Assembly: GCA_937888775.1 (NCBI GenBank) | Contig: CALAQT010000149.1 | Span: 21,709 to 85,708 of the forward strand | Direction of reading: 5' to 3' | DNA: 64,000 bases | Source of the DNA: an uncultured Actinomycetes bacterium | GTDB taxonomy: Bacteria > Actinomycetota > Thermoleophilia > Solirubrobacterales > Solirubrobacteraceae | Shown: piece after piece, positions 26,455-51,444 of the stretch | Layout of the letters: each line of letters opens with the position of its first letter | How positions within the stretch are numbered: position 1 is the stretch's first letter | Notes under the pieces: model-generated | Database searches by the model: none | What the model saw: only the letters and a program-made list of their open reading frames with translations | What the model was told of the DNA's origin: nothing | Made by a program: the position numbers and the translations under genes

Positions 26455-26471
26455 CATCGCGAGATATAACC
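26444..26471. repeat. Facing IS256 terminal repeats with 6-bp spacer
   Basis: GGTTATATCTC (26444-26454) and GAGATATAACC (26461-26471) are a perfect 11-bp inverted repeat around CATCGC. The first arm is the right end of the IS256 element. The second looks like the outer end of another copy whose body is absent. Facing ends with a short spacer resemble a circle junction. Confidence 0.65.
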
Positions 26472-26546
26472 GAGTGGGTTGTGGGTAGGCCTGTGCCTAA
26501 AGCCGCCGTGGTTGCCGGCGCTCATGAGGCACCGATATCCCTGTGG

Positions 26547-27869: not shown

Positions 27870-27951
27870 TGATAGCTAGACTAGTACCTCAGGCGTCACG
27901 CTGGCCCGCGGCGACGAGCGAGTCAAGCCGTCCCTCAATTGAGGGTGCGGG

Positions 27952-28398
27952 ATGGACAGGAGATCGCGGCGAATCGCCAGCCCCCACATGGACATTCTCG
28001 GGCACTGCGCCGGCCGCATCGTGGTCGGCCGCGGGCGGCCGGAGTCAGAGTTCGATCCGGAGCTCGTCTTCGCCGCCTGCGAGGCCTTTGGCGTTGCCGT
28101 CGAGATCAACTCGCGCCCGGAGCGGCTCGACCCCCCGAAGCGGTTGCTGCGTGTCGCTCACGAGATGGGGTGCCGATTCAGCATCGACACCGACGCCCAC
28201 GCGCCGGGTCAGCTCGAGTGGCCGATCAACGGCTGCGAGCGCTCCGCACTCTGCGGCAACCAACCCGGGTCGATCGTCAATACACTCGACGCGGAGTCGC
28301 TACTGGACTGGACGCAAGACCACGCACGCCGTGGAGAGCGGGAGACGAGACTCGAACTCGCGACATCGACCTTGGAAGGGTCGCGCTCTAGCAACTGA
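27952..28398 (+). pseudogene. C-terminal fragment of a PHP-domain phosphoesterase
   Basis: From about 27985 the frame reads PHMDILGHCAGRIVVGRGRP, then VFAACEAFGVAVEINSRPER and FSIDTDAHAPGQLEWPINGC. This is the metal-binding second half of a PHP-type phosphoesterase (His in ILGHC, Asp/His in DTDAH). Roughly the first two thirds of such a protein are missing upstream. The frame has no stop before the tRNA-Gly gene on the other strand and reads through it antisense, ending at 28398. It is a 5'-truncated remnant. Confidence 0.65.
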
Positions 28399-28409
28399 GC
28401 TACTCCCGC
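28337..28409 (-). tRNA. tRNA-Gly (anticodon TCC)
   Basis: Read on the minus strand all arms pair: acceptor GCGGGAG/CTCCCGC, D-arm GCTC/GAGC, anticodon stem CGACC/GGTCG around CTTCCAA (anticodon TCC), and T-stem GCGAG/CTCGT with loop TTCGAGT. The length is 73 with T as the discriminator; CCA is not encoded. This is a normal, intact tRNA and a possible integration site for mobile elements, given the truncated genes on both sides. Confidence 0.93.
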
Positions 28410-33321: not shown

Positions 33322-33540
33322 TCAGCCGCCCATCAACCAGGCCTTGGTTCCGCTCCCGAGCTTCACCAGCGCCGCCCACGAACGCTTAGCCGACTTCACG
33401 TCCGACTCAGCCACCAGCAGGTACCGGCACTCAGCGTGCGTGCCGCCGTCGGCGGTGACGTAGTTAGCCCAGCGCTTGGCAGCTTCGCGCTTGCCAAGAA
33501 CCTCCTCCGAGGTCATCTCGCCGAGCGCTTCGGAGCTACC
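33322..33540 (-). pseudogene. C-terminal remnant of a restriction/helicase subunit
   Basis: About 70 codons ending at 33322 read EVLGKREAAKRWANYVTADG, GTHAECRYLLVAESDVKSAK, RSWAALVKLGSG. The RYLLV-ESDV-A-SWAAL pattern is what I know from the very end of DEAD/DEAH restriction subunits (type III Res-like). The body is absent: upstream the frame runs into the 3' end of the nuclease gene. It marks the right edge of the Druantia-like operon and shows that another defence gene was lost here. Confidence 0.5.
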
Positions 33541-34813
33541 TAAAGGTGCTCTCCAGGTCGCGGTCAGAGCGCAAATGAAAGGATTCACTAAGAGGCGTTA
33601 GCGATGCGATCCCTAGGCCACCGCCCTCTGCTTCCAACAAGGCCCTAATGATGCGAACCCTAGTGCCCTCGGATACCTGACCATCCTCAGAGCTGCGCAA
33701 CACGATCGTGGAGCCTGACGCTAGGACGGACGAGTGGATCACCACTCCGTCCCAACTACGGGGTCCGCGCCGTGACCCGATGTCGACCTCGATGTCGCCG
33801 TAAGCCGACACTACCGGCTCCGACGTGTCAGTCCCCTCGCGCGCAGCAACATCTGTCGCGCTGTCGAGAAACACCCAATACTCGGGACACAACTGTCGAA
33901 CTGGGCAGAAGGAGCATCGCTCGACACCTGGTCGTGCCTCCGGAGGCCGTGCGCGAATAGCGTCACGAGCGGCGCCCGTTCTATCGGTGAGGGACACGGC
34001 GAAGCCATCGAGCTGAGCGCTAGTCAGCGGCGGGACATCCAGGTCCGCTCCGGGATACCGCAGTTGCAAACGCGTCGCGCTCGTCCGGCCCGGGTTGGAT
34101 TCCGCGTCCTCGCGCCATAGGAGGCTGTAGACCAAGATTTGCTCCACATGCGCCTCCGATTCGGCGCCTGTCTTGTAATCAACAATTTCACAGCCGCTGG
34201 CGGTCACGGTAAGCAGGTCGACGCGGCCGGTCCATCCAAGGCCGATGGACCGTAACGCTACCTCCGCGTGCGAACCCACGGACAGGTCGGTGCGCTCCGC
34301 TCGGTCCTGCGATCTCGGTACCGTCCCCGATCCGGCCGCCGGGAAAATCTCCGTCCGCGATAGCAGATCCTGAACCTGTCCGCGCATCAGGGGAATCCGG
34401 TTGACAAGGCTGGTCCGCACCGCCGGCAGTTGCGCGACGGCCCTTGGGTTGTCCGTCAGTACCTTGAGCCTTGCTTCCATCATCTCTCCGATGACAGCAG
34501 AGTAGCCGCCCAACGCTTTTAGTACGCCGAAAGCGTCCTCGGTCCGCAGCGAGCTACATCCGTTGGACACGAGCGCACCGACCAACTGTTCGAGCGTATC
34601 GTGAACGATGTCCCCACAAAGCGCGGCAAGATGGACGCTGGGTGGATAGCCGGAGCGCCTCCACAGAGCTGGGTACCGTGCACGCCGCAATGCCCAGCGC
34701 CGAGGGCACTCCTCGATTTCCTTGAGACTCGCGTAACTCATGAGCGCCGGTTCCTCGGGCCAGTATCCGTCGCTATCAGCGACACCAGTTTCGAGCAGAT
34801 CTCCGCCGTCCAT
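33536..34813 (-). CDS. PD-(D/E)XK nuclease of the RecB/Cas4 type with Fe-S cysteines
   Basis: A 425-residue nuclease, last gene of the Druantia-like operon. The N-terminal SYASLKEIEECPRRWALR carries Cys35-36-region cysteine, and CSFCPVRQLC supplies three more (about residues 300, 303 and 309), the four-Cys pattern of Fe-S nucleases such as AddB and Cas4. The active site is visible: His in GDIVHDTLEQL (71), Asp in GRVDLL (199), EIVDYKTG with Asp212 and Lys214, and Gln225 in the next helix. The C-terminal 110 residues are unassigned. Its ATG shares a base with the stop of the helicase gene (TGATG). It probably degrades DNA handled by the helicase. Confidence 0.85.
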   Translation of the reverse strand: MDGGDLLETGVADSDGYWPEEPALMSYASLKEIEECPRRWALRRARYPALWRRSGYPPSVHLAALCGDIVHDTLEQLVGALVSNGCSSLRTEDAFGVLKALGGYSAVIGEMMEARLKVLTDNPRAVAQLPAVRTSLVNRIPLMRGQVQDLLSRTEIFPAAGSGTVPRSQDRAERTDLSVGSHAEVALRSIGLGWTGRVDLLTVTASGCEIVDYKTGAESEAHVEQILVYSLLWREDAESNPGRTSATRLQLRYPGADLDVPPLTSAQLDGFAVSLTDRTGAARDAIRARPPEARPGVERCSFCPVRQLCPEYWVFLDSATDVAAREGTDTSEPVVSAYGDIEVDIGSRRGPRSWDGVVIHSSVLASGSTIVLRSSEDGQVSEGTRVRIIRALLEAEGGGLGIASLTPLSESFHLRSDRDLESTFR

Positions 34814-37800
34814 CAATTCAGCGCGTTGCGAACCATGAGAGTTGCCTGAGGCAGGTTCCTTGAAACCAACAACTCATCAATAGGCACCACACGCGTCGAA
34901 CCGTATTCGGCGGCATCGCGCAGTTCGCTCGTACCCAAGTAGCCCGGGGTAAGGGGCCCGTGAATGGCAACAATCAGCTCACGAGAGCCTGTCCTAACGA
35001 GAATTGGCGCTTCGATTCGCCCGATCCCGGGCACGTCGAATGGCACTCTGCGGTCTACCCGCACGCCTTCCATACCTAGCCTTAACACGTCATGAAATAG
35101 CCGATCCTCGGCCTGAGACACGCGTTCCGGTGTCAGGCCCGGATCATCGCCGAATAGCAGGTACCGAAGAAGCGTCGCACCCACATGTCGGTCGAGAAGT
35201 TCATGTTCAAATCGGTTCCCGAATCGCCTGAGGCAGCGGTAGCAGGAGCGGTCGCAGTTCGCCGGACAGTCCTCCAAAATCCGAAGTGCTCCGTCGTACA
35301 GCGAGCGGCCCATTTCCCCTATTCGCCGAGTGAAACCAGCACCGCCGGGAAGAGTGTCGTAGAGGTAGATTTCCGCCTCTCCGCCCGCTCCGCCGCCTTC
35401 CGTCAGTGCTGGCCGATGCTCGGCCTGAATCTCGTCCGTCGCGATACCTAAGGCGCGCGTCGACGCAATGGTTAGCGCCTCGCAAAGAGTGCGCAAGGCT
35501 ACGTCATTCGAGAGATATCCAGGTCGCAGCACCAGTGGTCGCTGCACCGTCATTGAGACCAACAAGATGTCGCTGAAAAAGTCTGTGCCCAATACGAGGC
35601 CACGCGTAGAGCCCCCACCAGGGCACTCGGGGTTCCGCCGGTCAGGATATGGCTTCGTGTGCGGCGCAGACACGTGCCCCACCGGATTTGCAGTTGGCTC
35701 GATCAGACCGCACCTCGTGCAATACGAATACCCTTCCTGTCGCGGACCTGTGTTGCTGACCAGGAGTCGATCGTGTCGGTAGTGGTGCCGGAGACCGTCT
35801 GCGACTTGGGTCCATTCGCCTCCCTCCGACGGACCCGAAGCGACCAACTTGGCCCTCGTAGCGTAACTCGTTGCGGGGGCATCATCCGGAGAAGTCCCCT
35901 CCGGGAGCGAATAAGGATGCGCGAAGCCTGGAGGGCGAACCCAGTTCTTGGCTTCTCCGAACGTTGCGATTCCCTTGCATGCAGGACAGTTTTGCGTGTC
36001 GCCAGCGTGCGCGCTCTCGTGCGGCACAGTCCGAGCGAAATGGCACACAGAGCACTCGAAATACCAGCGCCGATTCATCCATGCCTCTCGACGGTCGGAG
36101 GAAATTGGTGAGTAAAGTGCTCCTGACGTCCAAAGCTTGCCGTCGATCCATACCTCTTTACCCGGGGCATACTGCGTAAGCGCTGTTGCTAGTCCCTGCG
36201 AGGGTGCATATTGATAGGCGTGGCGATAGCCGGTAGACCGCTCGATGTCGAACACATGAAACGCAACCACGTCCGTCGGAAACGCGTACCTCGGCAGCGC
36301 TCCCTTGTACAAGAGTCGGTCGAGAAGGAACGTGTTCGCACGGGACGGATCTTGCCGTTCCTCGCCTGTCTCAGGCACCTGCTCGTCGCGCTCAGCGGGA
36401 TCTTCAACTGGCGGATCGCCTGGAGAAGGAGCTTCGTTCGCCTCGCCCTCGTTACCCAATGCTTCATCCACGGCTGCCAAAGTTCCGGAGACGAAGCTCT
36501 CTAATAGACGCTTACGCTCTGGGGCGGCCAGTTGTCCAGGGATCCAATCGTCAAGCTCCGCCCTCAGTTGAGGTTCCTCCGACCGCATCCACGCCTCGAA
36601 TCCACGTCGACTAAGCGGCGATTCAGCATCTAAGAAGTCCTTCACCTTGCCTAACACCTCAAACAGGTAGGCGGACTGTGCGTCGGGCCTGATGTCGGGC
36701 AATTGAGTCTGGTGGTATCGCTGCAGAAGAAAGGCCGTGACATGACGCTTGACTATCTCCTCGTTATCAAGCGTCAAGAAAGGGTCGTCCACCGCGCCGC
36801 TAATCATTCCGTCCGGCTCGCGGAAGTAGTGCTCATCGTGCGTGTCTGAACTACCGAAAGCGACGACCGTGGCTACCGAGTTTCCACGGCGTCCAGCACG
36901 GCCTGACCTCTGTTGATAGTTAGCTCTACCGGGCGGCATGTTTCTAAGCGCCACTCCGGAGAGGGCGCCGATATCAATGCCCACCTCCATCGTGGTGGTG
37001 CACGACAGAACGTCAATCGCGAACCGATCCTCTCCGGCTGACCCTGGCCCAAGGTCGATGTCCTGGAACAACAACTCGTGTTCCTCGGCCTTGGAAAACA
37101 CCTCTGCCGGGTTTGCCGCGCTCAGCTGTGCCGTGTGCTCAGCGGCGATGACGGACATTGGCGGCCTCGGCGGGATCTCCAGGGCTCTCCGTGTACTTCC
37201 CCGGTAGTAGCCCTTGCGCGCGGAAAAAACTGGATCCGCATCAGGGTCGATAGCCTCGACGGTGTCTCGGCCACAGCTAACGCAACGCGATGGGCCAGGA
37301 AACGGGCGCTGCGTGGCCCGGCATACTAAGCACGTCGCCCATCCATCCGCCACGTCCAGAGTCAGGTTTCGGGCCAGCATGCGGTGCTTTCGGTCAGGCG
37401 TTACCTCGCAAAAGGAGCGTAAGAGGGGCGGCAGCCACGTGCGCTCGAAGTCCCGCTTGATGCCACAAGCATCGAGCCACCTGCCGAGGTGGGTGAACTT
37501 CCCTGAGTGCGGGCCCACGCCCCGGGGAACGAGCCACCAGTTGGGTGGACTCATCCATGTAAACCACACGCCTGGATCCGACCATTCGTTGAGCCAGTAG
37601 CGCACAAGCGCCAACTTCTGCGCCGAGGTCTGCGCTTGCGACCCCAACTGCGGTAGCTCAGTGACTAGACGGTCGCGGATACTCGTGCGCTCCGCCAGCG
37701 ACCCCAACGCCAGCGCCTGGAGCCCGTAGTACCTCTCTAACAGTGCGTCATTCAGCGCTCGTCTGAGGGACTCGGGGGGTGGCTGGTTGGCCACCGTCAT

Positions 37801-40347
37801 CATTAGTCGAAGCATCACAGCCGGCAGCGCGGGGTCGCCGTCCCTGAGTATTTCCTCTACATCGCGCTGCGCTTGAAGAGACTCACCTGCCCTTAGCTCC
37901 GGCCGCAGCCTTACCCTGAGCCGCACGGCCCCGACCAATAACGCCAGATATACATGTTCGAGGCTCAACTCCGCCACCATGTTTTGGTCCTCGACGCTCT
38001 GCAGATCCCGCATCCCCACGACGATTAGCGGACGCAGCACGTCTCGCATGGAGTACTTCTGTAGGTTTGGCGCAAGTCGAGCAGCGATTTGGCGGGAGTC
38101 CGAAAAGGTTAGGACCTTGCGCCCACGCAATGGCGCAAAGTCTGTCCTTGGTTGACTAGGCGATTGAACCTGCAACTGACGCGTAATTAGCGCCTGGAAT
38201 GGCTCATCGCCCTTAGTTTGATGATCCTGTACGGAAGTACGGTTGAAGCCAGCGGCCAAGCCGCAGACACCACAAGGCCGAAACTCTCCGGGATGGTCGT
38301 CGTTACGAGGTGGCACCGCCGGGGCCCGGCCAAGTCGCAGAAACACCTGGCGGTTCCGCTCCCCCAGCGCTCTCGGATTCAACCGCCCCGTAATCAGATC
38401 CAGCTCGGCCGGCTCGACGTGATCGCGAAGGGGATCCTCCAGACAGAGGTCGAGGGGCTCTAACTCGTCCGCAGACCTGCCTGAGGAAGCAAAGGCGCGC
38501 CCGCGTTCAGCCCACAGGTACTGGGGGGTGGCGAGATCGTCTGTGTAGGCTCTGGCGTAAGCGGAACCGCACTGGCGGCACGTGTAGAGCTCAAACACGC
38601 GCGCGCCACACGTGCACACGTCCCGCGGCTGCGCGAAGAGCATGCCAACAGGTCCCCCCCGCTCCTCCTCCTGAAGGCCCGTACACGCTCGGTCTAGACA
38701 CGCCCAAAGACCGGCTAGACCACGAAACATGCTATGGACACGACAAGGCAGTAGGCCCGGTTCCGAATCGGATCTGCGCGCCACACTGCCCAACGCGACT
38801 AATACGGTCAATGCGACGTCAACACTCTCGGACCGGGGCGTTTCAAACACGTCTCCGGCGAGTGCGGCAAGCGGAAGTGCCTGCCGCATCGTGAGATTTA
38901 CCAATCGAGACATCGGGGGGAACTCAGCCAGTGCGTCATGAAGGGCGCGTTCGACGGGACCTTCCTCGCTCACGCCGCGATAACGCAGGAGGGGAGCAAC
39001 GGTCTCAAGCCTTTCGCTATTAGTGGTTGCGTCATAGAAAGAGCTCAACGAAATGGCTGCGAGTACTGTGGCGTCTGCCGCGGAGCCCTTTCCAGAATCG
39101 GGTCGCAAAGCCAGTTCCCCACCGATGGTCTCGAAATCCGCTGGCTGTTTACCTGAAAGCTCCGCAGCAAACACCTTGGCACGTGCGTCATCTGTGAAGC
39201 TCGCGCTGGTACATATCACCTGCACCCGATCGGGGGTCAACCCGAGTCGTGCCCGCAGGCGGCGGAGCAGTAGCCCAACCTCAGCGCCGGCCGCCCCTCG
39301 ATACAGATGTGCCTCGTCTACTACCAGCACAAACGTGTCATCCGGATGTCTTGCGAGCCAATCTCGCGTCGCATCGAAGATGGGACGCTCTAAAGGTCGC
39401 ATCAACATGTACTCCAGCATGGAGTAGTTGGTAATCAGCACATCCGGAGGCGATTCCAACACTTCATGTCTGGTGAGCAATTCGGAGTCCTCCGGAAGCG
39501 TGACCGCGCGGACAAAGCGTCCTTGCGGACCCTGCCACCGACTCCCCTTCGTTCCGTACCACGCACGCAGGTCAGCCTTCGCGGGCCACTTGCCCTTCGC
39601 TCTCAAGTGGCTAATCAGCCTTTGAGCTCGGTCGAATTCAGTCGACTCGCTGTCAGCCGCTGTCTCCAGAAGGTCAAGGTAGAACCGCTCAATCGGCAGC
39701 AGCCGCTCCTGGTCGCGCTTTGCCGTGCGGACCCCTGGGTAAAGCGTTCGGCTTGTATAGCGTGCAAAGCGTGCAGGTCTACCGCCCCACGCAGTGAACT
39801 TGGCCACCATCCGTGGATCGCCCATCATGAGGCGCAGACGGCCGAGTTGATCGTTGACCAAGGCGTTCATTGGGTACAGCAGGATCGCGCGTACACCTGG
39901 CATTCCGAACGACTCGGGGCGGTCTCTGGCTTCAACCGCCAGCTTGCCCAGTATCGGGAGGAGAAACGCCTCCGTCTTGCCGGATCCCGTACCAGTGGTC
40001 ACGACCAAACTGCGCTTCCCGCGGAGTGACGACCTCAGAGCTGCGGCTTGATGGCTGTACGGGGGGTCGAATATGAGCGGGCCATTTTCCGCATCGCTAG
40101 CCGACATCGCCTCAAATAAATCCGTTGCAGCTGAGGGAAGCTCAAGATCACGGAAAGCCTTGCCTGGTACGTACCGCGGCGTGCTCTCTAAGTACGGAAC
40201 CTGGTACGTGACACCTTCCTCATCAAGCAGGCGTTTCCGTTGCTGTACAAGAGTAGGGGCGCCAATATGGTAAGCGGCCTCAATGTATTCTCGTAGCGCC
40301 TCACGGATCTCCCCAATGGTCTCGGTGATCGTTGTCTGACTAGCCAT
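34813..40347 (-). CDS. druE: DruE-type DEAH helicase with C-terminal DUF1998 domain
   Basis: An 1844-residue ATP-driven helicase or translocase. Motif I is VTTGTGSGKTEAF (about 117-129), motif II VVDEAHLYRG (DEAH at 344-347), then TSASF. Motif VI is QRSGRAGRRGNSVATV, just past mid-protein. A Cys-rich insertion (CTCGARVFELYTCRQCGSAY) and several CxxC pairs follow the pattern of large helicases of this class. The tail is a DUF1998 domain: YDTLPGGAGFTRRI, then CPANCDRSCYRCLRRFGN. Size and layout match DruE, the helicase common to Druantia systems. The ATG at 40347 overlaps the upstream gene by eight bases; in-frame codons to 40407 lie inside that gene. Confidence 0.82.
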   Translation of the reverse strand: MASQTTITETIGEIREALREYIEAAYHIGAPTLVQQRKRLLDEEGVTYQVPYLESTPRYVPGKAFRDLELPSAATDLFEAMSASDAENGPLIFDPPYSHQAAALRSSLRGKRSLVVTTGTGSGKTEAFLLPILGKLAVEARDRPESFGMPGVRAILLYPMNALVNDQLGRLRLMMGDPRMVAKFTAWGGRPARFARYTSRTLYPGVRTAKRDQERLLPIERFYLDLLETAADSESTEFDRAQRLISHLRAKGKWPAKADLRAWYGTKGSRWQGPQGRFVRAVTLPEDSELLTRHEVLESPPDVLITNYSMLEYMLMRPLERPIFDATRDWLARHPDDTFVLVVDEAHLYRGAAGAEVGLLLRRLRARLGLTPDRVQVICTSASFTDDARAKVFAAELSGKQPADFETIGGELALRPDSGKGSAADATVLAAISLSSFYDATTNSERLETVAPLLRYRGVSEEGPVERALHDALAEFPPMSRLVNLTMRQALPLAALAGDVFETPRSESVDVALTVLVALGSVARRSDSEPGLLPCRVHSMFRGLAGLWACLDRACTGLQEEERGGPVGMLFAQPRDVCTCGARVFELYTCRQCGSAYARAYTDDLATPQYLWAERGRAFASSGRSADELEPLDLCLEDPLRDHVEPAELDLITGRLNPRALGERNRQVFLRLGRAPAVPPRNDDHPGEFRPCGVCGLAAGFNRTSVQDHQTKGDEPFQALITRQLQVQSPSQPRTDFAPLRGRKVLTFSDSRQIAARLAPNLQKYSMRDVLRPLIVVGMRDLQSVEDQNMVAELSLEHVYLALLVGAVRLRVRLRPELRAGESLQAQRDVEEILRDGDPALPAVMLRLMMTVANQPPPESLRRALNDALLERYYGLQALALGSLAERTSIRDRLVTELPQLGSQAQTSAQKLALVRYWLNEWSDPGVWFTWMSPPNWWLVPRGVGPHSGKFTHLGRWLDACGIKRDFERTWLPPLLRSFCEVTPDRKHRMLARNLTLDVADGWATCLVCRATQRPFPGPSRCVSCGRDTVEAIDPDADPVFSARKGYYRGSTRRALEIPPRPPMSVIAAEHTAQLSAANPAEVFSKAEEHELLFQDIDLGPGSAGEDRFAIDVLSCTTTMEVGIDIGALSGVALRNMPPGRANYQQRSGRAGRRGNSVATVVAFGSSDTHDEHYFREPDGMISGAVDDPFLTLDNEEIVKRHVTAFLLQRYHQTQLPDIRPDAQSAYLFEVLGKVKDFLDAESPLSRRGFEAWMRSEEPQLRAELDDWIPGQLAAPERKRLLESFVSGTLAAVDEALGNEGEANEAPSPGDPPVEDPAERDEQVPETGEERQDPSRANTFLLDRLLYKGALPRYAFPTDVVAFHVFDIERSTGYRHAYQYAPSQGLATALTQYAPGKEVWIDGKLWTSGALYSPISSDRREAWMNRRWYFECSVCHFARTVPHESAHAGDTQNCPACKGIATFGEAKNWVRPPGFAHPYSLPEGTSPDDAPATSYATRAKLVASGPSEGGEWTQVADGLRHHYRHDRLLVSNTGPRQEGYSYCTRCGLIEPTANPVGHVSAPHTKPYPDRRNPECPGGGSTRGLVLGTDFFSDILLVSMTVQRPLVLRPGYLSNDVALRTLCEALTIASTRALGIATDEIQAEHRPALTEGGGAGGEAEIYLYDTLPGGAGFTRRIGEMGRSLYDGALRILEDCPANCDRSCYRCLRRFGNRFEHELLDRHVGATLLRYLLFGDDPGLTPERVSQAEDRLFHDVLRLGMEGVRVDRRVPFDVPGIGRIEAPILVRTGSRELIVAIHGPLTPGYLGTSELRDAAEYGSTRVVPIDELLVSRNLPQATLMVRNALN

Positions 40348-41455
40348 CACCGCGCACCCCACCGCTCGGAACCTCATCCACCTGGAGCCAAAGCGACTGC
40401 GCAGCAAACTTCATTTCCTGCTCCACCTCGTTGGCGTCCATCTCGTACGCAAGCAGCGACGAGCTTCTTCCGCGCTCAAGTACTGCACCAAATAGATCCC
40501 AGCGGCGCTGGAGCCATCTGGGTAGGGGCGTCTGAACCTCGAGGACGACACGGTGGTCGTCACCGCCGGCAGGGCGCACCGTCAACCGCTGCGGATGACC
40601 CGCCAAGCTGTCCTTCGCCGCCGCTAAGCGCCACGCCTCATCACAGCCACGTCCCATATCCGGATCCAAAGGCAGGTCAACGAGTCCTCCCACGCGTCCG
40701 CCAGAAATCGCCGCATAGCACCATAGGTCTGAGCCAAACTCCTGCGGTCGTCGGGCGACAAATCTACCATTGTCGCGAGGCTCGGGAACGCGCCATCGAC
40801 CAACGTAGTAGTCGATGGGCCTACTGACGTCGAGTATCCGCACACCGGGGACATCGTCACAGCCGCCGGCCGCCACCAACTTAGCGTCGTACATCGCCTG
40901 GCACGCAGCGGCCGCACCGGGCCGCGGTGCGCGAAGCCACCAATCTTCTGGTATCTCGACCAACCCATAATCAGCCAAGAGGGCGGCCAAGTCTTCGCCG
41001 GGCCTTGGGCCAATGCGCCTTGTATGGCCTCTGTACTCCACATAACGCCAAAGTCCTTCGCCGACCAGCGGCACCGAGTCCGGACGGACTCCAATCAGCA
41101 CGCATCCACCGCCGCCGCGCTTAACAAATCCAGGCGGCCCGAGATACAACTCCCTAGCAATTGTCCGCTCGGGTCGACCGTTGTATTCAAGCAAGTCACC
41201 ATAGCCGACGAGTGCATCTAAGGTCTCTTGGACCCGTTGCTTCAAACCCTCGCGCTCTTCAACTAGATCCCCCAGCAGACCCTCAACTTCATTGAGGAGT
41301 GCCAGCGGGCGGACAGGGCATCGTAACGAGGCCGCCCGCCGTATCGCGGCCGCGTAAACTTCGCCGGACGAGATTGGGAAGGCATCGGACGATAGCCCGA
41401 GCCCTTCCACACATAGCCGCGCTGCGGCTGAGCGCTCCACGACCTCTAGAACCAC
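40340..41455 (-). CDS. Unrecognised 371-residue protein of the Druantia-like operon
   Basis: A soluble protein encoded between the 956-residue protein and the helicase and overlapping both neighbours by about ten bases. The N-terminal third is helical (LLNEVEGLLGDLVEEREGLK, QRVQETLDALVGYGDLLEYN), suggesting a winged-helix or coiled structure. The middle contains RELYLGPPGFVKRGGGGCVL and EYRGHTRRIGPRPGEDLAAL. Its position matches DruD, the gene before the helicase in type I Druantia, but I cannot claim sequence similarity. No catalytic motif is obvious. Confidence 0.6.
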   Translation of the reverse strand: MVLEVVERSAAARLCVEGLGLSSDAFPISSGEVYAAAIRRAASLRCPVRPLALLNEVEGLLGDLVEEREGLKQRVQETLDALVGYGDLLEYNGRPERTIARELYLGPPGFVKRGGGGCVLIGVRPDSVPLVGEGLWRYVEYRGHTRRIGPRPGEDLAALLADYGLVEIPEDWWLRAPRPGAAAACQAMYDAKLVAAGGCDDVPGVRILDVSRPIDYYVGRWRVPEPRDNGRFVARRPQEFGSDLWCYAAISGGRVGGLVDLPLDPDMGRGCDEAWRLAAAKDSLAGHPQRLTVRPAGGDDHRVVLEVQTPLPRWLQRRWDLFGAVLERGRSSSLLAYEMDANEVEQEMKFAAQSLWLQVDEVPSGGVRGDG

Positions 41456-44316
41456 GGAAAGCCCCTATACGGGAAGCTCGTTGCGGTGTCGAGGGATGTT
41501 CGGTGGCAGGCGAGAACGAGGAAGCGAGCTGTGCGAACCAATACCGGAAATTCCAACGCTAACGTGAGGGCACGTGTCACGCCGTCGCCCGCCCAACCAA
41601 GGGCAGTGTCAGGCCGACTCGCAAGACGCAGAACGAAACTCGCCAACCAATCGGCGTTCGACATCACCTCGCGGCGGGCGTGGATGTCTTTAAGCACCCG
41701 GGCGAGAGCATCAATTCGTGGCCCTACGCCTCCTTCGGCCAACGCAGTCGCGCGCCGCCTGAGCCCGTCGTCGACCAGGGACGAGACCCCGGCGAGCGAG
41801 ACAAGCCTATTCAATTCGGATACCGTCTCCGGTTGCTCGTCTTCAACTCTACGTTCAAACGTACCCCAGTTTGGGCCGCCGATACTCGATGCAACCGTGA
41901 TCGCCAGCCACCTAAGCGTGGCGTCTCGCTGGTGGTAGGCTAGTACATTCCCCGGCAACTGGGCGCTGGCCCACAAACGAGACACACTCATCCAGTCAAC
42001 CAAGGCTTGCGCAGATCGTGGCTTGGTCGCCAAGGCGGGGGGCTGTCTCAGTGCACCCAACTCTGTCAGGCGTCGGACCGTGGGTGCCAGAACGATGCTC
42101 GTCTGGCATTGGGCCTCCTGAGCGATGAGAAGGCCCCCGGTCCCGGACCTGTACGTGTTCTGCTTATCCAGTTGCACCGCGACCCCCACATCAGGGCGCC
42201 GAAATGAGTACGACGTGACCACCGGGTCCGCAGCCTCGAGATTATCCACCAACCGGGCGAAGTCACCATTGTGGTCCGATCCGACTGCCCATCGCAGCGG
42301 ACTAAATTCGCGCTCAGCGCGTTGCACCGCGAGTCCGAAGTCCGGATGGCTTACCTGAATAATGCAGGCAGCTGCCTCATCGACGTACCGCGATACTTGG
42401 TCGACCTCTCGAAACCCTTGGTCGAACGCCCGGCGCCATGTCTGCGAGCTGATGGGTAGGGTGAGCGCACCAATCTGCCGCTCCACCAGAGTACGACCTT
42501 TGTTTCCCTCGAGACTCACACGCAACTTGACACCTGCGCCTGGTGGGCCCAGAACGGAGACCGTCGCGTCTCCCTGCCACAGCTCACTCAGGCTCGCCCC
42601 GTAAGGGAGGACCATCAACAGCATCGGGTATCGACTCGATCCCAGCTCGCTGCTCGCAGCTGCCTCACGGACACTCATCGTTAGTGATCCTTCGACGACA
42701 CGGCCACCGCCAGCGCGCGGGCGCACGACTACACGCATCTCGTTCCGACCTACGTCAAGATCCCGAATCGTGGCGTAGCCTACGCGTCGGCCGCCCTCAG
42801 CTTGACCAACGTGCACAGAGGCAGCCGGACCTCCGTTGAGGCTGAGCTCGAACGTATCCACGTCCAAGCTTGAGGAGATTCGAATCAGAGGTTCGTCCCC
42901 GACGAGGAATTCCGCCCCGCCCTCGCCATCCCACTCAGCGGGCGCCGGACCAATCGGCATAAGGTCGAGATCGCGAACAACGGTAAGCCCCAACGCTGTT
43001 AGTTGGGCAGCACCATCGTCGTCGACGCGCGCAGGAACATCTAGCGTGTAGGCGTAGACCCCAGCGCATGCAACCTCGGTGGCTCGGAGCCCTATGAGCG
43101 ATGGGTCAATGGGGGATGTAGCAAGCAGCAAGTACGAGCGTCCTGGACGCACAGTCTTGCCGCGCACCTCTTTGACAACATCCCTTTCGACGTTGCCAAA
43201 CACCCAGGTCGGGCCCGGAGATAGAGCGCATTCCTCGGCCAAGACGTGGTTGATGGCCTCCGTTCCGTTCTCGAGTTCGAGCAACGCGACACCTCTTGCC
43301 GGCCATGCCTCAAGGACGCGCTGCTGCTCCGGGTACAAAAGTTGCCCTCGGGCCAACGGTGGGCCTTCGCTCCCCGCCACCCGACATCGACAAGACTGGA
43401 GCGCCTCCTCCAAACCAGGATAGATCTGAAGCAGGTCGGTCAAGTCTGGGAGAGCCAAGGCAACCCGCAGGCTTCCGTTCGGGCCGCGTTGGACCATGAG
43501 ATTAGGGAGTCGGGCTCCTGACAGCCGCTCTTTCGGCGATCTAATGCCAGAAGGGATTCCCCTAGATGGCCGGCGCAATCCGCGAATACGGAGATCGTTC
43601 GCGCCTCTACGAGCGTCCCTCAACCATTGCCGTGCTTGTCTATGCTTCTCGAGGTCCGCCACGATGCGGGTAAGCGTTGACCGAAGGAGCAGCTCTGAAG
43701 TCTCATGCTCGCCCAGGAGCAGCGCTGCTGCAACCAGCCCGAGCAGAGCTCTATTCTCTGCGAACTTTTGGAAACGTTTCGACCCCCCGTGAGCTCTTGA
43801 TGCGATCAAGTTCCCTAACGCGATCGGGTTGGTCCTGACCTCCGACGTTAACGAGTAGCGCAGTTCGAATAGGAGTCGGGCCAGTTGCGTCTGCAAGTCT
43901 GTGGGCAAAACCGCGTGAGTGATCGGCCACGAGATGATGGTGAACCACTCAGCCCACGCGCCGGCCGGTAGCGCTCCACCAAAACTAGCTGCGAATCTCT
44001 GAAATGCACTCCTCACAAGCGCGCGGTCACCGAACACCGACCACCCCGGCGTCTCACTGGCAAACGTCTGCCAGTATTCCTCGCCTTCGTATCGGTACCC
44101 GACCTCTGTAGCGTAGACGACCAGCGGTAGCCAGTGTTGAGTCGTCAGCTTGTTCGACGCAACAGTTGCACGGAGGAATGTGGCAACTTCTGCAATGGCT
44201 TCCGCACCTAGGTCGTGTTCCAGCGCATATATTGGCTGGCCCTGTCTCCGTACCTTGAGGGAATCGAAGTGTTGCTCAAGCTCGGCCGATATCTGAGCAA
44301 GGTCGCGGTACACCAT
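41446..44316 (-). CDS. Unrecognised 956-residue protein of the Druantia-like operon
   Basis: A large protein lying 25 bases downstream of the druA-like gene. The N-terminal 250 residues are helical with a EEYWQTFASETPGW motif that I associate, from memory only, with large proteins accompanying DUF1998 helicases (YjiT/ECs_5259 type). The middle (about 330-680) is beta-rich, with several immunoglobulin-like segments (DTFELSLNGGPAASVHVGQA, RNEMRVVVRPRAGG). The end is helical again. In type I Druantia two separate proteins (DruB, DruC) lie here, so this could be a functional replacement or a fusion. No nuclease or ATPase motif is visible. Confidence 0.62.
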   Translation of the reverse strand: MVYRDLAQISAELEQHFDSLKVRRQGQPIYALEHDLGAEAIAEVATFLRATVASNKLTTQHWLPLVVYATEVGYRYEGEEYWQTFASETPGWSVFGDRALVRSAFQRFAASFGGALPAGAWAEWFTIISWPITHAVLPTDLQTQLARLLFELRYSLTSEVRTNPIALGNLIASRAHGGSKRFQKFAENRALLGLVAAALLLGEHETSELLLRSTLTRIVADLEKHRQARQWLRDARRGANDLRIRGLRRPSRGIPSGIRSPKERLSGARLPNLMVQRGPNGSLRVALALPDLTDLLQIYPGLEEALQSCRCRVAGSEGPPLARGQLLYPEQQRVLEAWPARGVALLELENGTEAINHVLAEECALSPGPTWVFGNVERDVVKEVRGKTVRPGRSYLLLATSPIDPSLIGLRATEVACAGVYAYTLDVPARVDDDGAAQLTALGLTVVRDLDLMPIGPAPAEWDGEGGAEFLVGDEPLIRISSSLDVDTFELSLNGGPAASVHVGQAEGGRRVGYATIRDLDVGRNEMRVVVRPRAGGGRVVEGSLTMSVREAAASSELGSSRYPMLLMVLPYGASLSELWQGDATVSVLGPPGAGVKLRVSLEGNKGRTLVERQIGALTLPISSQTWRRAFDQGFREVDQVSRYVDEAAACIIQVSHPDFGLAVQRAEREFSPLRWAVGSDHNGDFARLVDNLEAADPVVTSYSFRRPDVGVAVQLDKQNTYRSGTGGLLIAQEAQCQTSIVLAPTVRRLTELGALRQPPALATKPRSAQALVDWMSVSRLWASAQLPGNVLAYHQRDATLRWLAITVASSIGGPNWGTFERRVEDEQPETVSELNRLVSLAGVSSLVDDGLRRRATALAEGGVGPRIDALARVLKDIHARREVMSNADWLASFVLRLASRPDTALGWAGDGVTRALTLALEFPVLVRTARFLVLACHRTSLDTATSFPYRGFPWF

Positions 44317-44341
44317 GCTTGCTCAGCCGAGGGGCGGAAGG

Positions 44342-45592
44342 CTATGCCCCACGCGTCCCTACCCTCGCTTTGGCTGCTGCATCTGCGACCAAGCGCCACT
44401 CAAGCAGAGGTGCCAGATCGCGCGCGTCCCAATCGCTAAAGGAGGAGTCTCTCAACGCGCGCGGCAGCATCCAGCGGCTTGTGGCGAGCTCGCCGATCTG
44501 TGCCACCGTCTTCAGGGACCCGTACAGCGGCCGATGTGATTCGCCACGCAGAATTCTCCCGGCATTGTCAGCGACATTGCAAAGAAATACCTCTCGATTG
44601 ATGCCGTGCCGAAGCATGTCTGCGTCGAACCCAAGAAGATCTAACGTTGCGCGTATGGTGCGCATACGCCAATTCGGTCCGTCGCCATACTCGTAGCCAT
44701 ATGCGTATGGATGACGTCTAAGTTTCAGGTACTTTCTCATATCCTCAAACAATTCTTGACCAACGTGGAAATGGCCCCAGCCGCCGGTAAAACCAATCGG
44801 CGAGAAGTAGCTCACGCCGTCAAGGCGCAGACGATTGTAAATTGATGATCTGCCTAAAGAGGAACTCGTCGTTACCGCAACCAAGCGCGCCTTCTTGTGC
44901 TGCCCGGATATGAGCCCTTCGGAGTCGCCGTAACGGTCGCGGAAATGTTTGACCACCTCATGCGACCGTACGAGGCACGCCACCATCTTGCCACCTAACA
45001 GCATGTTGTAAGGAGGGACCGCACCCAATACAAAGGCGTCCATGATATTGACCAGTCTCTGCTCCCTTTGCTCCGAGTTCCAGCCAATCAACGCGTCCCG
45101 CGCACGTAGATTGAAGGAGGGATCGCCGAGCGCGATTAGCCCCATTAGTTTTTGGTTGCTACGGTCCCAAACCAGGAAGCGCATGCGCCGGCCGTAGCCC
45201 CGAGAGACCGGCACACTCCAAAGAAGGCTGGCAAGACGGAAGAGGTCGGCTTCATCTGTTCCGGAGCGCACTAGTTGGAGCCGCGGCTCGATCGCCTCGG
45301 GGCGCACGTCCCGACCATCCGCAAACGCCCCCAGCAGGGAACGTCCGCGGGCTTCGAGAAAGGCTTCGTCCGCCTGGAGCCGCTCAACTCTTTGTGCGGC
45401 GTGTAGGGCGCGTATGGAATCTTTGCTTTGCGACACCGGGCTGAGAGAGCCGTCGCGCCTTGTTTCGAACCCGAGGAGAAGGAGGTGCCGCTGGAGCTTC
45501 GATCGGATGCGCCGCTCGAGCACGACTGTCGGGCTGAGCACGCGCGTCGGCCGCCGTGTCACTTGCAGTCCGAACTCTGAGAGATGGAGCAT
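44342..45592 (-). CDS. druA: DruA-type protein (DUF4338)
   Basis: A 416-residue protein and the first gene of the operon. The DUF4338 core is clear: RMRFLVWDRSNQKLMGLIAL, GDPSFNLRARDALIGWNSEQ, REQRLVNIMDAFVLGAVPPY, NMLLGGKMVACLVRS. After it come ARLVAVTTSSSLGRSSIYNR and GWGHFHVGQELFEDMRKYLK. DUF4338 is the hallmark of DruA in type I Druantia anti-phage systems described by Doron and colleagues; its activity is unknown. The ATG at 45592 has GGAGAAAGG about 16 bases upstream. Paired direct repeats at 45639-45655 may be its operator. Confidence 0.82.
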   Translation of the reverse strand: MLHLSEFGLQVTRRPTRVLSPTVVLERRIRSKLQRHLLLLGFETRRDGSLSPVSQSKDSIRALHAAQRVERLQADEAFLEARGRSLLGAFADGRDVRPEAIEPRLQLVRSGTDEADLFRLASLLWSVPVSRGYGRRMRFLVWDRSNQKLMGLIALGDPSFNLRARDALIGWNSEQREQRLVNIMDAFVLGAVPPYNMLLGGKMVACLVRSHEVVKHFRDRYGDSEGLISGQHKKARLVAVTTSSSLGRSSIYNRLRLDGVSYFSPIGFTGGWGHFHVGQELFEDMRKYLKLRRHPYAYGYEYGDGPNWRMRTIRATLDLLGFDADMLRHGINREVFLCNVADNAGRILRGESHRPLYGSLKTVAQIGELATSRWMLPRALRDSSFSDWDARDLAPLLEWRLVADAAAKARVGTRGA

Positions 45593-45638
45593 TCGATGCC
45601 GCGACTCACCTTTCTCCTTTACCGAGACCTGATGCGGT

Positions 45639-45655
45639 GTAGGTTAACGTAGGTT
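45639..45655 (-). promoter_or_regulatory. Direct repeats upstream of the druA-like gene
   Basis: GTAGGTT occurs at 45639-45645 and 45649-45655, exactly one helical turn apart, around the palindrome GTTAAC. The position, about 50 bases before the first gene of the operon, suits an operator. No regulator gene lies beside it. Confidence 0.4.
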
Positions 45656-45748
45656 GAGAACGAATTTGAACCAACCTCGTCGTGCGCGCCTTGAATGCAC
45701 GGTCTCGGACTGTCACTCCTCTCGGGCGCCGACAAGCGAGCAATCGGT

Positions 45749-46141
45749 CTAACGCTCGGTTGTCAGCATCCGCATCACCGCCTCGTAGCCGTCGGCAGCG
45801 TTTAAGTGGGCGTAGACCTGCTCGATCATCCGCAGTCCGCTGTGACCGAGCAGCCGCGCGGGCTGGTCGAACTCGTACGCAATACCGAGGGCGTACGCTT
45901 GAAGGCCCAAACGCAGAAGACGGCCATCGCCAGCATAGGAGTGCTGCGGGTCAAGGATCGTCAGGGTTGCCAGATCGTCAGCAGTCAGGGTGACTCTCCG
46001 GAACCGTTCGGATCGTGTTCCGGCCAGCCCGACCACCCAGCTCGACGCGCCATTGCCCTCGACGGTTTCGACGCGCATCGGCTCGTTGAATAGCGAGCCG
46101 GTGAGGATCTGACCCGGGTTGATCGCTGTAGAGCTTGTCAA
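45749..46141 (-). pseudogene. Fusion scar: SNF2-type helicase N-terminus joined to an integrase C-terminus
   Basis: A single 130-codon frame made of two unrelated pieces. The first 93 codons (INPGQILTGSLFNEPMRVET, GTRSERFRRVTLTADDLATL, YAGDGRLLRLGLQAYALGIA) are the N-terminal block of large SNF2-type helicases of restriction/defence loci, ending just before the ATPase domain. The frame then switches to PARLLGHSGLRMIEQVYAHL, the end of a tyrosine integrase with its nucleophilic Tyr. A deletion between a helicase gene and an integrase gene explains it. It starts with TTG and cannot be functional in either role. Confidence 0.68.
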
Positions 46142-46401: not shown

Positions 46402-46908
46402 TTAACCGACGCGGCGCCACCACTCCGGCTCATCAGCGTCCGTCGCTCCATCCGCTGAGGGGTCGGAGGAGGCGGTGGGAACAGGGGCCGCGGCGTCCAC
46501 CGAAACCCACCGGGCGCCCGTGAACCACTGCGCCCCATCCGGTGACCAAAGGGCTCCGAGGGGCGCGACTGCACAGCCGTCTCGCCACCCGTAGCCGTCC
46601 CACCAATGGCGACCGTCGGGTGCCAGTGTGATGCTCGGGGGTTGCACCGGTGGAACGCCGGCTCGCATGGTCGCCGGGCTCGTCACATAGATGCGCAACC
46701 GACGGTCAGCTACGGCGACGAACCAAGCCAATAGCCAGCCCACGCCGGTCCAACCCAATAGGAGGTTGACGGATAAGGTCAGCGGAGCCGCGCCGCGGTG
46801 CCTGGCCACGGCGAGCAGGGTCGGTGCGAAGTACACGGCCGCCGCGGCGATCAGAGCCCATGCGACCTCGGCTCCGGCTGGGTCTGAAGGGCTCGGTACT
46901 GCGATCAT
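46402..46908 (-). CDS. Superinfection-immunity-like membrane protein with C-terminal Trp repeats
   Basis: A 168-residue protein with two hydrophobic segments in the first 70 residues (VAWALIAAAAVYFAPTLLAV and LTLSVNLLLGWTGVGWLLAW). The second, with NLLLGWTGVGW, matches the superinfection-immunity (T4 Imm-like) family found in many bacteria. The tail carries two DUF2510-like units (APDGRHWWDGYGWRDG and SPDGAQWFTGARWVSV). The ATG at 46908 lies six bases after a TAATAT box, so the message is probably leaderless. It diverges from the lipoprotein gene of the pilus region. Confidence 0.68.
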   Translation of the reverse strand: MIAVPSPSDPAGAEVAWALIAAAAVYFAPTLLAVARHRGAAPLTLSVNLLLGWTGVGWLLAWFVAVADRRLRIYVTSPATMRAGVPPVQPPSITLAPDGRHWWDGYGWRDGCAVAPLGALWSPDGAQWFTGARWVSVDAAAPVPTASSDPSADGATDADEPEWWRRVG

Positions 46909-48573: not shown

Positions 48574-49299
48574 GTGCCAGTGACCAGCGCACCGCCCCGC
48601 CGCTTCCCCGGACGCGTGGGTGGCAACGGTGCGCGTCGGCCCGAGCCCCTGCGGCCGCCATCGATCGAACGCCGTCGCAGAACGACGGCCGCCATCGTCG
48701 CCGTCCTCTGCATCGCCGGCGGTGCTCTCGCCGGCGTGATCGCATTCAAGGCCGGCAGCGCCCGCCAGTCCGTGCTCGCCGCCACGCAGAATCTCGGCGC
48801 CGGACACATCCTCACGGCAGGCGACCTGCGTGTCGTCGACGTGTCGACCGATGGCGGCCTCAACCTCGTCCTCGCCAGCGCCGAGGCTTCGATCCTCGGT
48901 CACCCGTTGGCAGTCCCCATCGCCAGCGGCGCACCGGTGGTGAATAGCGAGGTCGGCTCTCCAGCCGCCACCGGCCCCGGTCAGGCGGTTGTGGGTGTTC
49001 TCTGCAAGGCAGGCCAGTTCCCACCGTCCCTCGCGCCGGGCGACACCGTGGAGATCATCGACACCGGTGTCGGCGGATCGGCGGGTGCCGCGAATTCCGG
49101 TTCCACATCAGGTTCGGGTACGGGCGGGACCCCGGTCGGGTTGCTCACCGCCACGGTGCTCGGCGTCGACACGCCCACGGACACGGCGACCGTCGGCACC
49201 ATCGTTTCACTGCGCGTCTCGACCGGTGATGCCCCCTCGGTGGCCCGTGCCGCCGCGGCCGGGCGCATCAGTCTGATCCTCATTCCCCCGGGCGGCTGA
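48574..49299 (+). CDS. SAF-domain protein, CpaB/RcpC-like
   Basis: A 241-residue pilus assembly protein. After a basic cytosolic start there is one membrane helix (TAAIVAVLCIAGGALAGVIA). A SAF domain follows (ATQNLGAGHILTAGDLRVVD, then ASILGHPLAVPIASGAPVVN), as in CpaB/RcpC and flagellar FlgA. The end is a second beta domain (FPPSLAPGDTVEIID and TIVSLRVSTGDAPSVARAAA). CpaB works outside the membrane during assembly of Flp pili. It starts with GTG and is followed five bases later by the CpaE-like gene. Confidence 0.8.
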   Translation: MPVTSAPPRRFPGRVGGNGARRPEPLRPPSIERRRRTTAAIVAVLCIAGGALAGVIAFKAGSARQSVLAATQNLGAGHILTAGDLRVVDVSTDGGLNLVLASAEASILGHPLAVPIASGAPVVNSEVGSPAATGPGQAVVGVLCKAGQFPPSLAPGDTVEIIDTGVGGSAGAANSGSTSGSGTGGTPVGLLTATVLGVDTPTDTATVGTIVSLRVSTGDAPSVARAAAAGRISLILIPPGG

Positions 49300-49303
49300 G
49301 GCG

Positions 49304-50146
49304 ATGGCGGTCGTGGCCATGACCTCGGTCAAGGGGGCACCTGGGGTGACCACGGCAGCCCTTGCCCTCACCAGCGCATGGCCAGTCCACCGTCGAGCGG
49401 TCCTGGTCGAGGCCGACCCGGCCGGAGGTGACATTGCGGCCCGATTCGGGATATCCCCGGATCCTGGACTGGCAAGTCTGGCGACCGGTCTCCGGCACGA
49501 GCGCTCGTCGGGCACATCAGGGACGCTGACGCAGCATGCTCAGGAGCTTCCGGGCGGTGTGCGGGTGCTCGTCGAACCGGTCTCCCGCACAGAGGCGCGA
49601 TCAGCCCTGGAGATCGTGGCCGACTCGCTGTCCGGACTCGCCGAGGCGGAGAGCGTGGACCTCATCGTGGATTGCGGCCGGTTGGAGACGGGAGATCACG
49701 TCTCCCCCACGCTCGAGTCCGGCGCCCGCACCACCGTCCCTCCGATTGCCCGACTTCTGATGCACGCCGACCTGATCCTCCTGATCACCGTCGGTGAGCT
49801 CGCCGATCTCAGTCACGTCCAAACGCTGCTCCCCCTGCTGCAGACCCGCCACGCCGGCCTCAGCATCCTTGTGCGGTCTCCTCAGGTGTGGACCAACGAG
49901 GAGATCGAACGCGAGCTGGAGGTTGACGTCGTCGGAGGGCTACCGTTTGATGCCGTCTCCGCTGACGTTCTCGCAGGTCGTCAGCACAGCCGCCGGGCGG
50001 CACGGCTCCCGTTGTTCCGGGCGGCGACCGCCATCGCCGACCGCGTCGTCAGTCAGCTCGAGGGCGCCGCCGGTCACGTCGCTCGCCATACCGTGGACGC
50101 CAGCAACGGCACGCCCCTCCTCACCGCCGAGGTCGCTGGGCCATGA
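49304..50146 (+). CDS. CpaE-like MinD/ParA-family ATPase
   Basis: A 280-residue P-loop ATPase. The deviant Walker A motif is KGAPGVTTAAL (about residues 10-20), followed by VLVEADPAGGDIAARFGI and a Walker B strand SVDLIVDCGRLE. CpaE-like proteins place the Tad machinery in the cell, usually at a pole. It ends inside the start of tadA with a four-base overlap (ATGA). The order CpaB-CpaE-TadA is standard. Confidence 0.82.
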   Translation: MAVVAMTSVKGAPGVTTAALALTSAWPVHRRAVLVEADPAGGDIAARFGISPDPGLASLATGLRHERSSGTSGTLTQHAQELPGGVRVLVEPVSRTEARSALEIVADSLSGLAEAESVDLIVDCGRLETGDHVSPTLESGARTTVPPIARLLMHADLILLITVGELADLSHVQTLLPLLQTRHAGLSILVRSPQVWTNEEIERELEVDVVGGLPFDAVSADVLAGRQHSRRAARLPLFRAATAIADRVVSQLEGAAGHVARHTVDASNGTPLLTAEVAGP

Positions 50147-51444
50147 CCAGGCGCGAGCTGACCAGACGGGCTGCGGACGACGTCTCGGCGCAGCTGGCCA
50201 GCTGGGCTCGGGAGGGCGGTGACAGCGCCCCCACCGACGAGTCGATGGCGCTCGCACGGCGCCTGGTGGACGAGTGGTTGGCGGCACACGCCCGCGCCGC
50301 GATCCGCGACGGCGGCGAGCGCCTCTCTGCCGACGATGAGACCGCGCTGGCCGCGTCGGTCCTCGACCACATCTTCGGGCTCGGCGACCTGCAGCCGTAT
50401 CTCGACGACCCCCGCGTCGAGAGCGTGTTCGTCAACGGATACGACAACGTTCACGTGCGACGCACTGGGCAGCCGGTTCTCCCCGCTGATCCCATCGGCG
50501 AGTCCGACGCCGAGCTCGAGGGCATGGTCAGACGACTGGCCGCACGCGAGGGGATGTCCGAGCGTCGCTTCGACGAAAGCTCGCCGTTCGTCAACCTCAC
50601 CCTGCGGGACGGCAGCCGCCTGCACGCGGCGATGGCCGTCTGCACTCGCCCGTCCGTCACCATCCGTCGCCACCGTCTCCTGGACGCGTCCCTCGACGAC
50701 CTCGTCGACCTCCGCATGGTCACCGACGAGATTCGCTCGCTGCTGGAGGCAGCGATCCTCGCCCAGTGCAACGTGGTGATCGCCGGCGGACCGAACGCCG
50801 GGAAGTCCTCGCTGCTGCGCACGCTGGCCTCGGCGATCCCCAGCGAGATGCGCGTCGTGACCATCGAGGACACCTACGAACTGTTCCTCGACCGCGACCG
50901 CCGTCGTCACCCCAACTGCGTGGCGCTCGAAGGTCGACCGGCGAACGTGCAGAGTGAGGGCGCGATCACGCTCGCCGACCTCGTCTATCAGGCCTTGCGC
51001 ATGGGGCCGGACGTGCTCATCGTGGGCGAGGTCCGCGGCCCCGAGGTCGTCCCCATGCTCGACGCGCTCAGCGCCGGCAACGCGGCGGGATCGATGTGCA
51101 CGGTGCACGCGCGATCGACGTTGGGAACCTTCGACCGCCTCAAGGGACTGCTCGCCCAGGCGCCGGAGCGGTACGGCGCGGAGGCGAGCGCCAGCCTCAT
51201 CGCCACCGCTGTTGACCTGGTGGTGCACATCTCGACGACCACGCAGCGCGACGGCTCAGTGCACCGCTGGGTTGACTCGGTGCAGGAGGTGCGCCACGCC
51301 GAGGGCGCCACCATCGTCAGCAACGAGGTTGCCAGCGTCGCCGCCGACGGACGGATGACCCACCTGGCCCCGCTCTCTGCTGAATTGAAGGGGCGTCTCA
51401 TCGACATCGGCTACGACCTTGCCGACTGGAGGGCGTACGCGTGA
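50143..51444 (+). CDS. tadA: Tad pilus assembly ATPase, TadA/CpaF
   Basis: A 433-residue secretion ATPase that drives pilin export and polymerisation. The N-terminal domain (FGLGDLQPYLDDPRVESVFV, SPFVNLTLRDGSRLHAAMAV) is typical. Walker A is IAGGPNAGKSSLLRTLAS (about 211-228), then VVTIEDTYELFL. Walker B with the Glu is VLIVGEVRGPEVVPMLDALS (about 291-310) and GSMCTVHARS is the His box. Overlaps of four bases with cpaE and tadB show translational coupling. Confidence 0.93.
   Translation: MTRRELTRRAADDVSAQLASWAREGGDSAPTDESMALARRLVDEWLAAHARAAIRDGGERLSADDETALAASVLDHIFGLGDLQPYLDDPRVESVFVNGYDNVHVRRTGQPVLPADPIGESDAELEGMVRRLAAREGMSERRFDESSPFVNLTLRDGSRLHAAMAVCTRPSVTIRRHRLLDASLDDLVDLRMVTDEIRSLLEAAILAQCNVVIAGGPNAGKSSLLRTLASAIPSEMRVVTIEDTYELFLDRDRRRHPNCVALEGRPANVQSEGAITLADLVYQALRMGPDVLIVGEVRGPEVVPMLDALSAGNAAGSMCTVHARSTLGTFDRLKGLLAQAPERYGAEASASLIATAVDLVVHISTTTQRDGSVHRWVDSVQEVRHAEGATIVSNEVASVAADGRMTHLAPLSAELKGRLIDIGYDLADWRAYA

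Follow-up and report, generated by a model that had tools for sequence, protein, structure and literature searches.

A Druantia-like operon with a 956-residue protein in place of DruB and DruC and a co-inherited, exchangeable nuclease gene behind druE

On the minus strand of the window, the whole stretch of 64,000 nucleotides that was analysed, five genes stand head to tail: druA (44342..45592; a DUF4338/PF14236 protein of 416 aa, the first gene of the operon), X956 (41446..44316; 956 aa, occupying the place of DruB and DruC), druD (40340..41455; 371 aa, GTG start), druE (34813..40347; a YprA-like SF2 helicase, 1844 aa from its ATG) and a gene for a Cas4/AddB-like PD-(D/E)XK nuclease with four cysteines (33536..34813; 425 aa, ATG at 34813). 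Reading the junctions directly, we found a 25-nt gap between the druA stop and the X956 start, a 10-nt overlap of X956 with druD, an 8-nt overlap of druD with druE, given a druE start at the ATG at 40347, and a TGATG overlap that joins the druE stop to the nuclease start. The upstream-extended druE frame, open to 40407, encodes 1864 aa. An earlier, sequence-only reading had described five minus-strand genes with overlaps or a 25-base gap, and all five lie at the positions it gave. Comparison of loci showed that the same gene order recurs in distant phyla, indicating that the arrangement is not due to chance. Two small ORFs (88 and 130 aa) also fall inside the outer limits of 33322 and 46141; neither gave a Pfam match, nothing links either to the operon, and the small ORF upstream of the operon had no PADLOC match.

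The G+C content of the operon genes is 59–62%, lower than the 64% of the stretch measured on the left and the 69% of that on the right, which would suit acquired DNA. A flanking att-like repeat was looked for around the operon and none was found. Near the operon, window positions 25105-28409 hold a Mutator-family transposase, a Schlafen AlbA_2 protein and a tRNA-Gly. A Superinfection-immunity-like (Imm_superinfect) protein is encoded immediately upstream of the operon (46402-46908), and consecutive matches to RcpC/CpaB-like (weak), T2SSE and T2SSF (weak) proteins at 48574-52283 probably mark a Flp/Tad pilus cluster adjoining it. Additionally, positions 13989-17129 encode a 1046-aa protein with an N-terminal DprA/SMF-type domain, longer than an ordinary DprA.

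The product of druA matches PADLOC DruA1 (PDLC00002) at 588.7 bits (1.6e-177) and Pfam DruA (PF14236, DUF4338) at 287 bits. The druE product matches PADLOC DruE1 (PDLC00013) at 1895.5 bits (E = 0) over residues 23-1863 of the 1864-aa frame, carries GTGSGKT and DEAH motifs with Pfam DEAD, Helicase_C and a DUF1998/MZB end, and, as a helicase, also gives weak BrxH matches in PADLOC. Thus, the DUF4338 (DruA-type) and DruE-type assignments of the sequence-only reading agree with the PADLOC and Pfam results. Of the two middle proteins that it had set aside for profile comparison, the 956-residue one matched nothing and the 371-residue one matched DruD models, best PADLOC DruD1 (PDLC00010) at 321.5 bits (1.6e-96); DruD had no Pfam or NCBIfam match at E <= 0.1. 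With E. coli DruD itself the window DruD reached an hhalign probability of 1.4% (E 0.037), a remote relation that is unproven, and E. coli DruD matches other DruD models than the window DruD does. The N-terminal domain of DruD (about residues 22-107) is predicted to be winged-helix-like. As for the DUF4338 family, a DndF domain with this annotation is described as GNAT-like in the accessible part of PMC10853773.

The last 135 residues of the window DruE contain zero lysines and hence no (D/E)xK motif. Such a string is present in the C-terminal stretch of 10 of 14 aligned DruEs, in six of these within a segment LR(D/E)xKE or LKDVKE, and an HG pair occurs there in 8 of the 14. Because the active site of Vsr enzymes uses His rather than Lys, the sequence by itself is insufficient to call the C-terminal domain of the window DruE dead. 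The DruE proteins of types I and II are given as having predicted inactivated Vsr nuclease domains in the accessible text of PMC12458937.

For X956, no matching model was found in PADLOC, Pfam or NCBIfam (Pfam and NCBIfam at E <= 0.1). DruB and DruC models were absent among the PADLOC matches listed for the operon proteins, and DruH was likewise without a PADLOC match to X956 at E <= 0.1. Compared directly, the X956 profile reached a probability of 0.2% with one E. coli DruB sequence, 0.4% with a 24-row DruC profile and 0.2% with one E. coli DruH (YjiT-family). By these profile comparisons X956 is without detectable relation to DruB or DruC, and with both of those absent, the earlier proposal that a single 956-residue protein stands in their place holds. 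The predicted fold comprises a helical N-terminal domain (about 1-246), a disordered linker, a beta-rich part with Ig-like domains (best matched at 448-746) and a helical C-terminal domain (about 750-940). Such Ig-like domains occur widely and are no proof of a role for X956. Related proteins of about 1000 aa or more occur at L003 and L097 (Leisingera plasmid), L004 (Rhizobium) and L096 (Azospirillum), the relation being clearest in L003, with the other three matching the N-terminal part of X956 only. Beside them lie NERD genes and helicase genes of the DUF1998 or DruE1-like kind, L003 and L004 also having SNF2 or similar helicases; together these loci probably form a broader family of defence loci with several helicases.

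The nuclease matches Pfam PDDEXK_1 (PF12705) at 76.1 bits (cut-off 22). Numbered on its 426-aa frame, it carries the active-site residues H72, D200, D213-x-K215, Q226 and Y230 and the cysteines C37, C301, C304 and C310. Across 36 aligned nucleases, a selection from the 120 relatives found plus the loci, C37, H72, E185, D200, K215, Q226, Y230, C301, C304 and C310 are invariant and D213 is kept at 90% or more. Judged by these residues, the RecB/Cas4-type active site (H, D, D/E-x-K, Q-x3-Y) is intact and the protein is predicted to be of the four-cysteine Fe-S type; the four Cys and intact active site noted previously recur in the aligned relatives. We take the cysteine pattern and motifs to be those of AddB/Cas4. 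The best PADLOC match, to DruK, is partial and weak (38.1 bits, residues 182-329 only, 148 residues). All nine nucleases tested match DruK models (E <= 0.001, best 1.5e-13), and Cas4 models likewise match 9/9, the Cas4 match of the window nuclease being weak. A protein search that scored the 7998 candidates with most shared words found 120 relatives, the weakest at 7e-29, which indicates a compact family at that search depth.

To describe what follows druE, we used loci gathered via X956, DruD or DruE; the window aside, none was chosen by its nuclease, and when viral contigs were scanned with the nuclease, the one contig that came back had already been collected. The count is based on 22 independent loci of the X956 type in which the druE end is complete and more than 1.3 kb of sequence follows. 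Left out were duplicates of one contig, loci lacking the druE 3' end or the following 1.3 kb, and loci with no same-strand X956 match near druE. The last group comprises L057 and L074, both without a nuclease; L059, which has the nuclease but a DruE truncated on the 5' side; L090, with a weak nuclease match of 153 bits; L003, where the slot is annotated as a NERD-helicase; and L077, L091 and L092, which matched neither of the two nuclease profiles. Kept were L093, whose contig holds only a 154-aa piece of X956, L002, a broken copy, and L089, with druE in two frames and extra genes. The Cas4/AddB-like nuclease is the next gene after druE in 11/22 loci (10/21 without the window), a putative nuclease-SF1-helicase gene takes the slot in 4/22, and neither is present in 7/22. 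The fixed membership that the sequence-only reading had assigned to the nuclease is therefore not what the loci show. In the 15/22 loci with either gene directly after druE, the gap by open frames is -177 to +77 nt, measured in L089 from the second of the two druE pieces.

The putative nuclease-helicase genes lie at L056:13481-15442, L064:19546-21519, L065:19504-21492 and L002:17217-18740. Each protein is about 650 aa long, that of the broken L002 copy being shorter, and joins a putative nuclease N-terminus to an SF1-like ATPase; the name reflects an N-terminus that looks D...ExK-like when the translation is inspected by eye. Pfam detects the ATPase part only, and Pfam/PADLOC matches are weak where scanned. 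Where DruE scores best with the E. coli form (L025, L047, L050-L053, L055, L079 and L080), 0/9 loci carry the Cas4/AddB-like nuclease in the 1.3 kb beyond druE. DruB and DruC were recognised in only two of these nine (L025, L055), which leaves two lineages as the basis for a contrast with true DruB/DruC systems.

Several neighbouring arrangements were also seen. At L090 (2942-4105) a PDDEXK_1 nuclease is joined to a DruE-like helicase that differs from the others and sits on a long branch; upstream lies a UvrD-like gene. Near X956-type operons, a gene for a GHKL ATPase (HATPase_c_3), a long DUF4338 protein of 650-690 aa, or both stand beside or instead of the short DruA (L065:6031-9675, L062:21069-22895, L007:1-2723, L060:14504-17001, L019:11405-12943 and L005:20703-22655), and look like an exchangeable sensor or accessory module. 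L002 is a Sinorhizobium plasmid copy of the operon in pieces, with an IS3 transposase inside druE.

DruE1, with any partner genes, was found at E <= 1e-250 in 9/350, 2/247, 2/246, 3/398, 2/170 and 4/164 genomes in six phylum-level draws, and DruD1 in 2/296 genomes of a seventh, each of the seven including its own centre genome in the count; a redraw of 47 genomes from one group gave 7/47. Four X956 loci lie on contigs catalogued as viral, two with the nuclease in the slot and two with the nuclease-helicase. A fifth viral contig, L074, carries DruD and DruE with no X956 on the contig and neither slot gene.

Pairwise distances of DruE and the nuclease correlate at r = 0.81 (n = 12, 0/5000 permutations), a set that includes L059 and L089, both with partial DruE; without these two the value is r = 0.82 (n = 10, 2/5000 permutations). 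Similarly, X956 and nuclease distances give r = 0.83 and X956 and DruE distances r = 0.96 (each n = 10, 0/5000 permutations). All of these correlations are uncorrected for host kinship, which could add to them. Tree and correlations drew on a different set from the 22-locus count, namely 27 rows of which 24 carried a label; it included L057, L059, L074 and L089 but not L002. In a quick DruE tree of the 27 rows, the 24 X956-kind rows form one fully supported clade, apart from E. coli and L055 (DruB/DruC-type) and with the long-branch L090 outside. The earlier suggestion of a distinct form accords with this separation from the two DruB/DruC-type DruEs tested. The first-branching row and most others carry the Cas4/AddB-like nuclease, a group made up mainly of Proteobacteria and viral contigs has either the nuclease-helicase or an empty slot, and the three chloroflexotan rows have neither gene. 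The nuclease label requires 4 changes on the tree against 8.3 when shuffled (15/5000 as low), and a three-state label 7 against 9.9 (118/5000 as low). Whether a row has either nuclease at all shows no significant clustering (6 changes against 7.5; 888/5000 as low). These statistics indicate that the kind of nuclease is inherited by lineage, with losses that look scattered. Together, the 11/4/7 division of the slot and the DruE-nuclease correlation describe a gene that is co-inherited yet exchangeable, neither a fixed member nor a chance neighbour.

Among known systems, the closest is Druantia type I (DruABCDE; E. coli), whose DruA, DruD and DruE models matched here in the same order, with DruE of the DruE1 kind. 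Type I has DruB (548 aa) and DruC (627 aa) where the window operon has X956, no nuclease gene follows druE in the two E. coli loci viewed (of 64) whereas the window operon has one, and type I DruE (E. coli, L055) groups apart from the window-type DruE. E. coli DruB has a CoiA_N match (L025:15198-16841; 1.9e-8), a lead to DruB function. Evasion of type I Druantia by a phage gene, through methylation, is cited in PMC12904381. Type III (DruH-DruE) resembles the window operon in pairing a large Ig-like protein between helical regions with a DruE helicase, and in DNA cutting, as far as the available text of PMC13192584 goes. According to the same text, type III DruE is a helicase-nuclease that engages ssDNA-containing intermediates and cuts through PLD domains fused to it, whereas the window operon has a separate nuclease gene; DruH, with three Ig-like domains, is a likely sensor, and X956 is without detectable sequence relation to it.

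PADLOC DruK (PDLC00058-60), a PD-(D/E)XK nuclease, is only distantly related to the window nuclease. The name 'DruK' does not occur in the PADLOC paper of 2021 (PMC8565338), which, at least in the accessible part, added Druantia type IV, not the window form. The nuclease-helicase link as such is not new: in 2017 a pfam12705 Cas4-like nuclease beside a YprA-like (COG1205) DUF1998 helicase was proposed as an uncharacterised defence pathway (PMC5704561). The likeness lies in that pair alone, Druantia and further genes being unnamed in the portion of that paper available. Across the literature searched, most subscription titles aside, no paper joins this nuclease, the replacement of DruB/DruC and DruA/D/E. 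The operon also resembles AddAB/RecBCD and Cas4 in having a RecB-motif, AddB/Cas4-type four-Cys nuclease working beside a helicase; it differs from AddAB/RecBCD in that the nuclease stands alone next to an SF2 helicase, its Fe-S cluster predicted. The operon is a new variant, plausibly a new type, of Druantia.

We consider it somewhat likelier right than wrong that this is a nuclease-bearing variant of type I Druantia in which the nuclease cuts strands exposed by DruE and so replaces a nuclease that type I DruE is reported to have lost. Every step past the joint inheritance of the genes is inferred. DruA, X956 and DruD would recognise the target, X956 as an Ig-like scaffold between helical ends acting as a sensor or assembly part, like that proposed for DruH in type III, and DruD helping to contact DNA through its winged-helix-like end. 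DruE would load on infection-made DNA with single-stranded parts and unwind it. The predicted Fe-S nuclease, translated right after DruE from the same message, would cut the exposed strands in the manner of AddAB and would thereby substitute for the C-terminal nuclease reported lost from type I DruE. The earlier idea that the nuclease could supply this cutting fits the loss described for type I DruE in the accessible text of PMC12458937. In some relatives the putative nuclease-helicase fusion would do the cutting instead, and the 7/22 loci with an empty slot imply that another nuclease serves there or that cutting is not always needed. Slightly short of even is the probability we give to a separate Druantia type with a core of DruA, X956 (unrelated to DruB, DruC and DruH), DruD and a nuclease-dead DruE, in which the exchangeable slot supplies the effector in trans.

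A less likely alternative, though one we take seriously, is that DruA, X956, DruD and DruE suffice for defence, with any cutting left to DruE or to host enzymes. The nuclease, often carried in the same operon, would then be an accessory separable from this core and serve repair, the clean-up of cut DNA or a wider range. In favour, the gene is missing in 7/22 loci and replaced in 4/22, the DruE tree shows no significant clustering of presence and absence of a slot nuclease, the two classical E. coli type I loci viewed (of 64) lack such a neighbour to druE, and the C-terminal domain of DruE is not proven dead. Against it, the start-stop overlap with druE, tight junctions elsewhere and long co-divergence with DruE and X956 all suggest function in the same complex or step. 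Improbable in our view is a nuclease that serves repair or the trimming of ends, as CRISPR Cas4 or AddB do, for instance to protect host DNA during defence, and is not the effector. Its general matches are to Cas4 and PDDEXK_1, and Fe-S RecB-type nucleases are often repair enzymes (RecBCD/AddAB), but no cas1 or cas2 was found among the operon proteins or in two Pfam scans that covered part of the flanking ORFs (10 proteins, then 9 of which two repeated earlier scans), and the replacement of this gene by a putative nuclease-helicase in the same slot is easier to square with a destructive step than with trimming of the Cas4 kind. Very improbable is the outcome against which the sequence-only reading had set its own proposal, a plain type I Druantia beside which the nuclease lies by chance: the 371-aa protein does match DruD models and DruE matches DruE1 over its whole length, but X956 shows no relation to DruB and DruC and the nuclease, far from sporadic, recurs in 11/22 distant loci and co-diverges with DruE.

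For classical type I Druantia, in which the helicase has by prediction lost its nuclease, no cutting enzyme was found described in the literature searched. A natural form with a stand-alone, motif-complete nuclease as the last gene makes a cutting role addressable by one point mutation, and the alternative gene in the same slot amounts to a built-in swap experiment. X956 additionally defines a family of at least 555 members that no model in PADLOC, Pfam or NCBIfam matches. Should the operon be a separate type, the nuclease would be its DNA-destroying effector, and the exchangeable slot would show Druantia keeping DNA recognition and unwinding apart from cutting.
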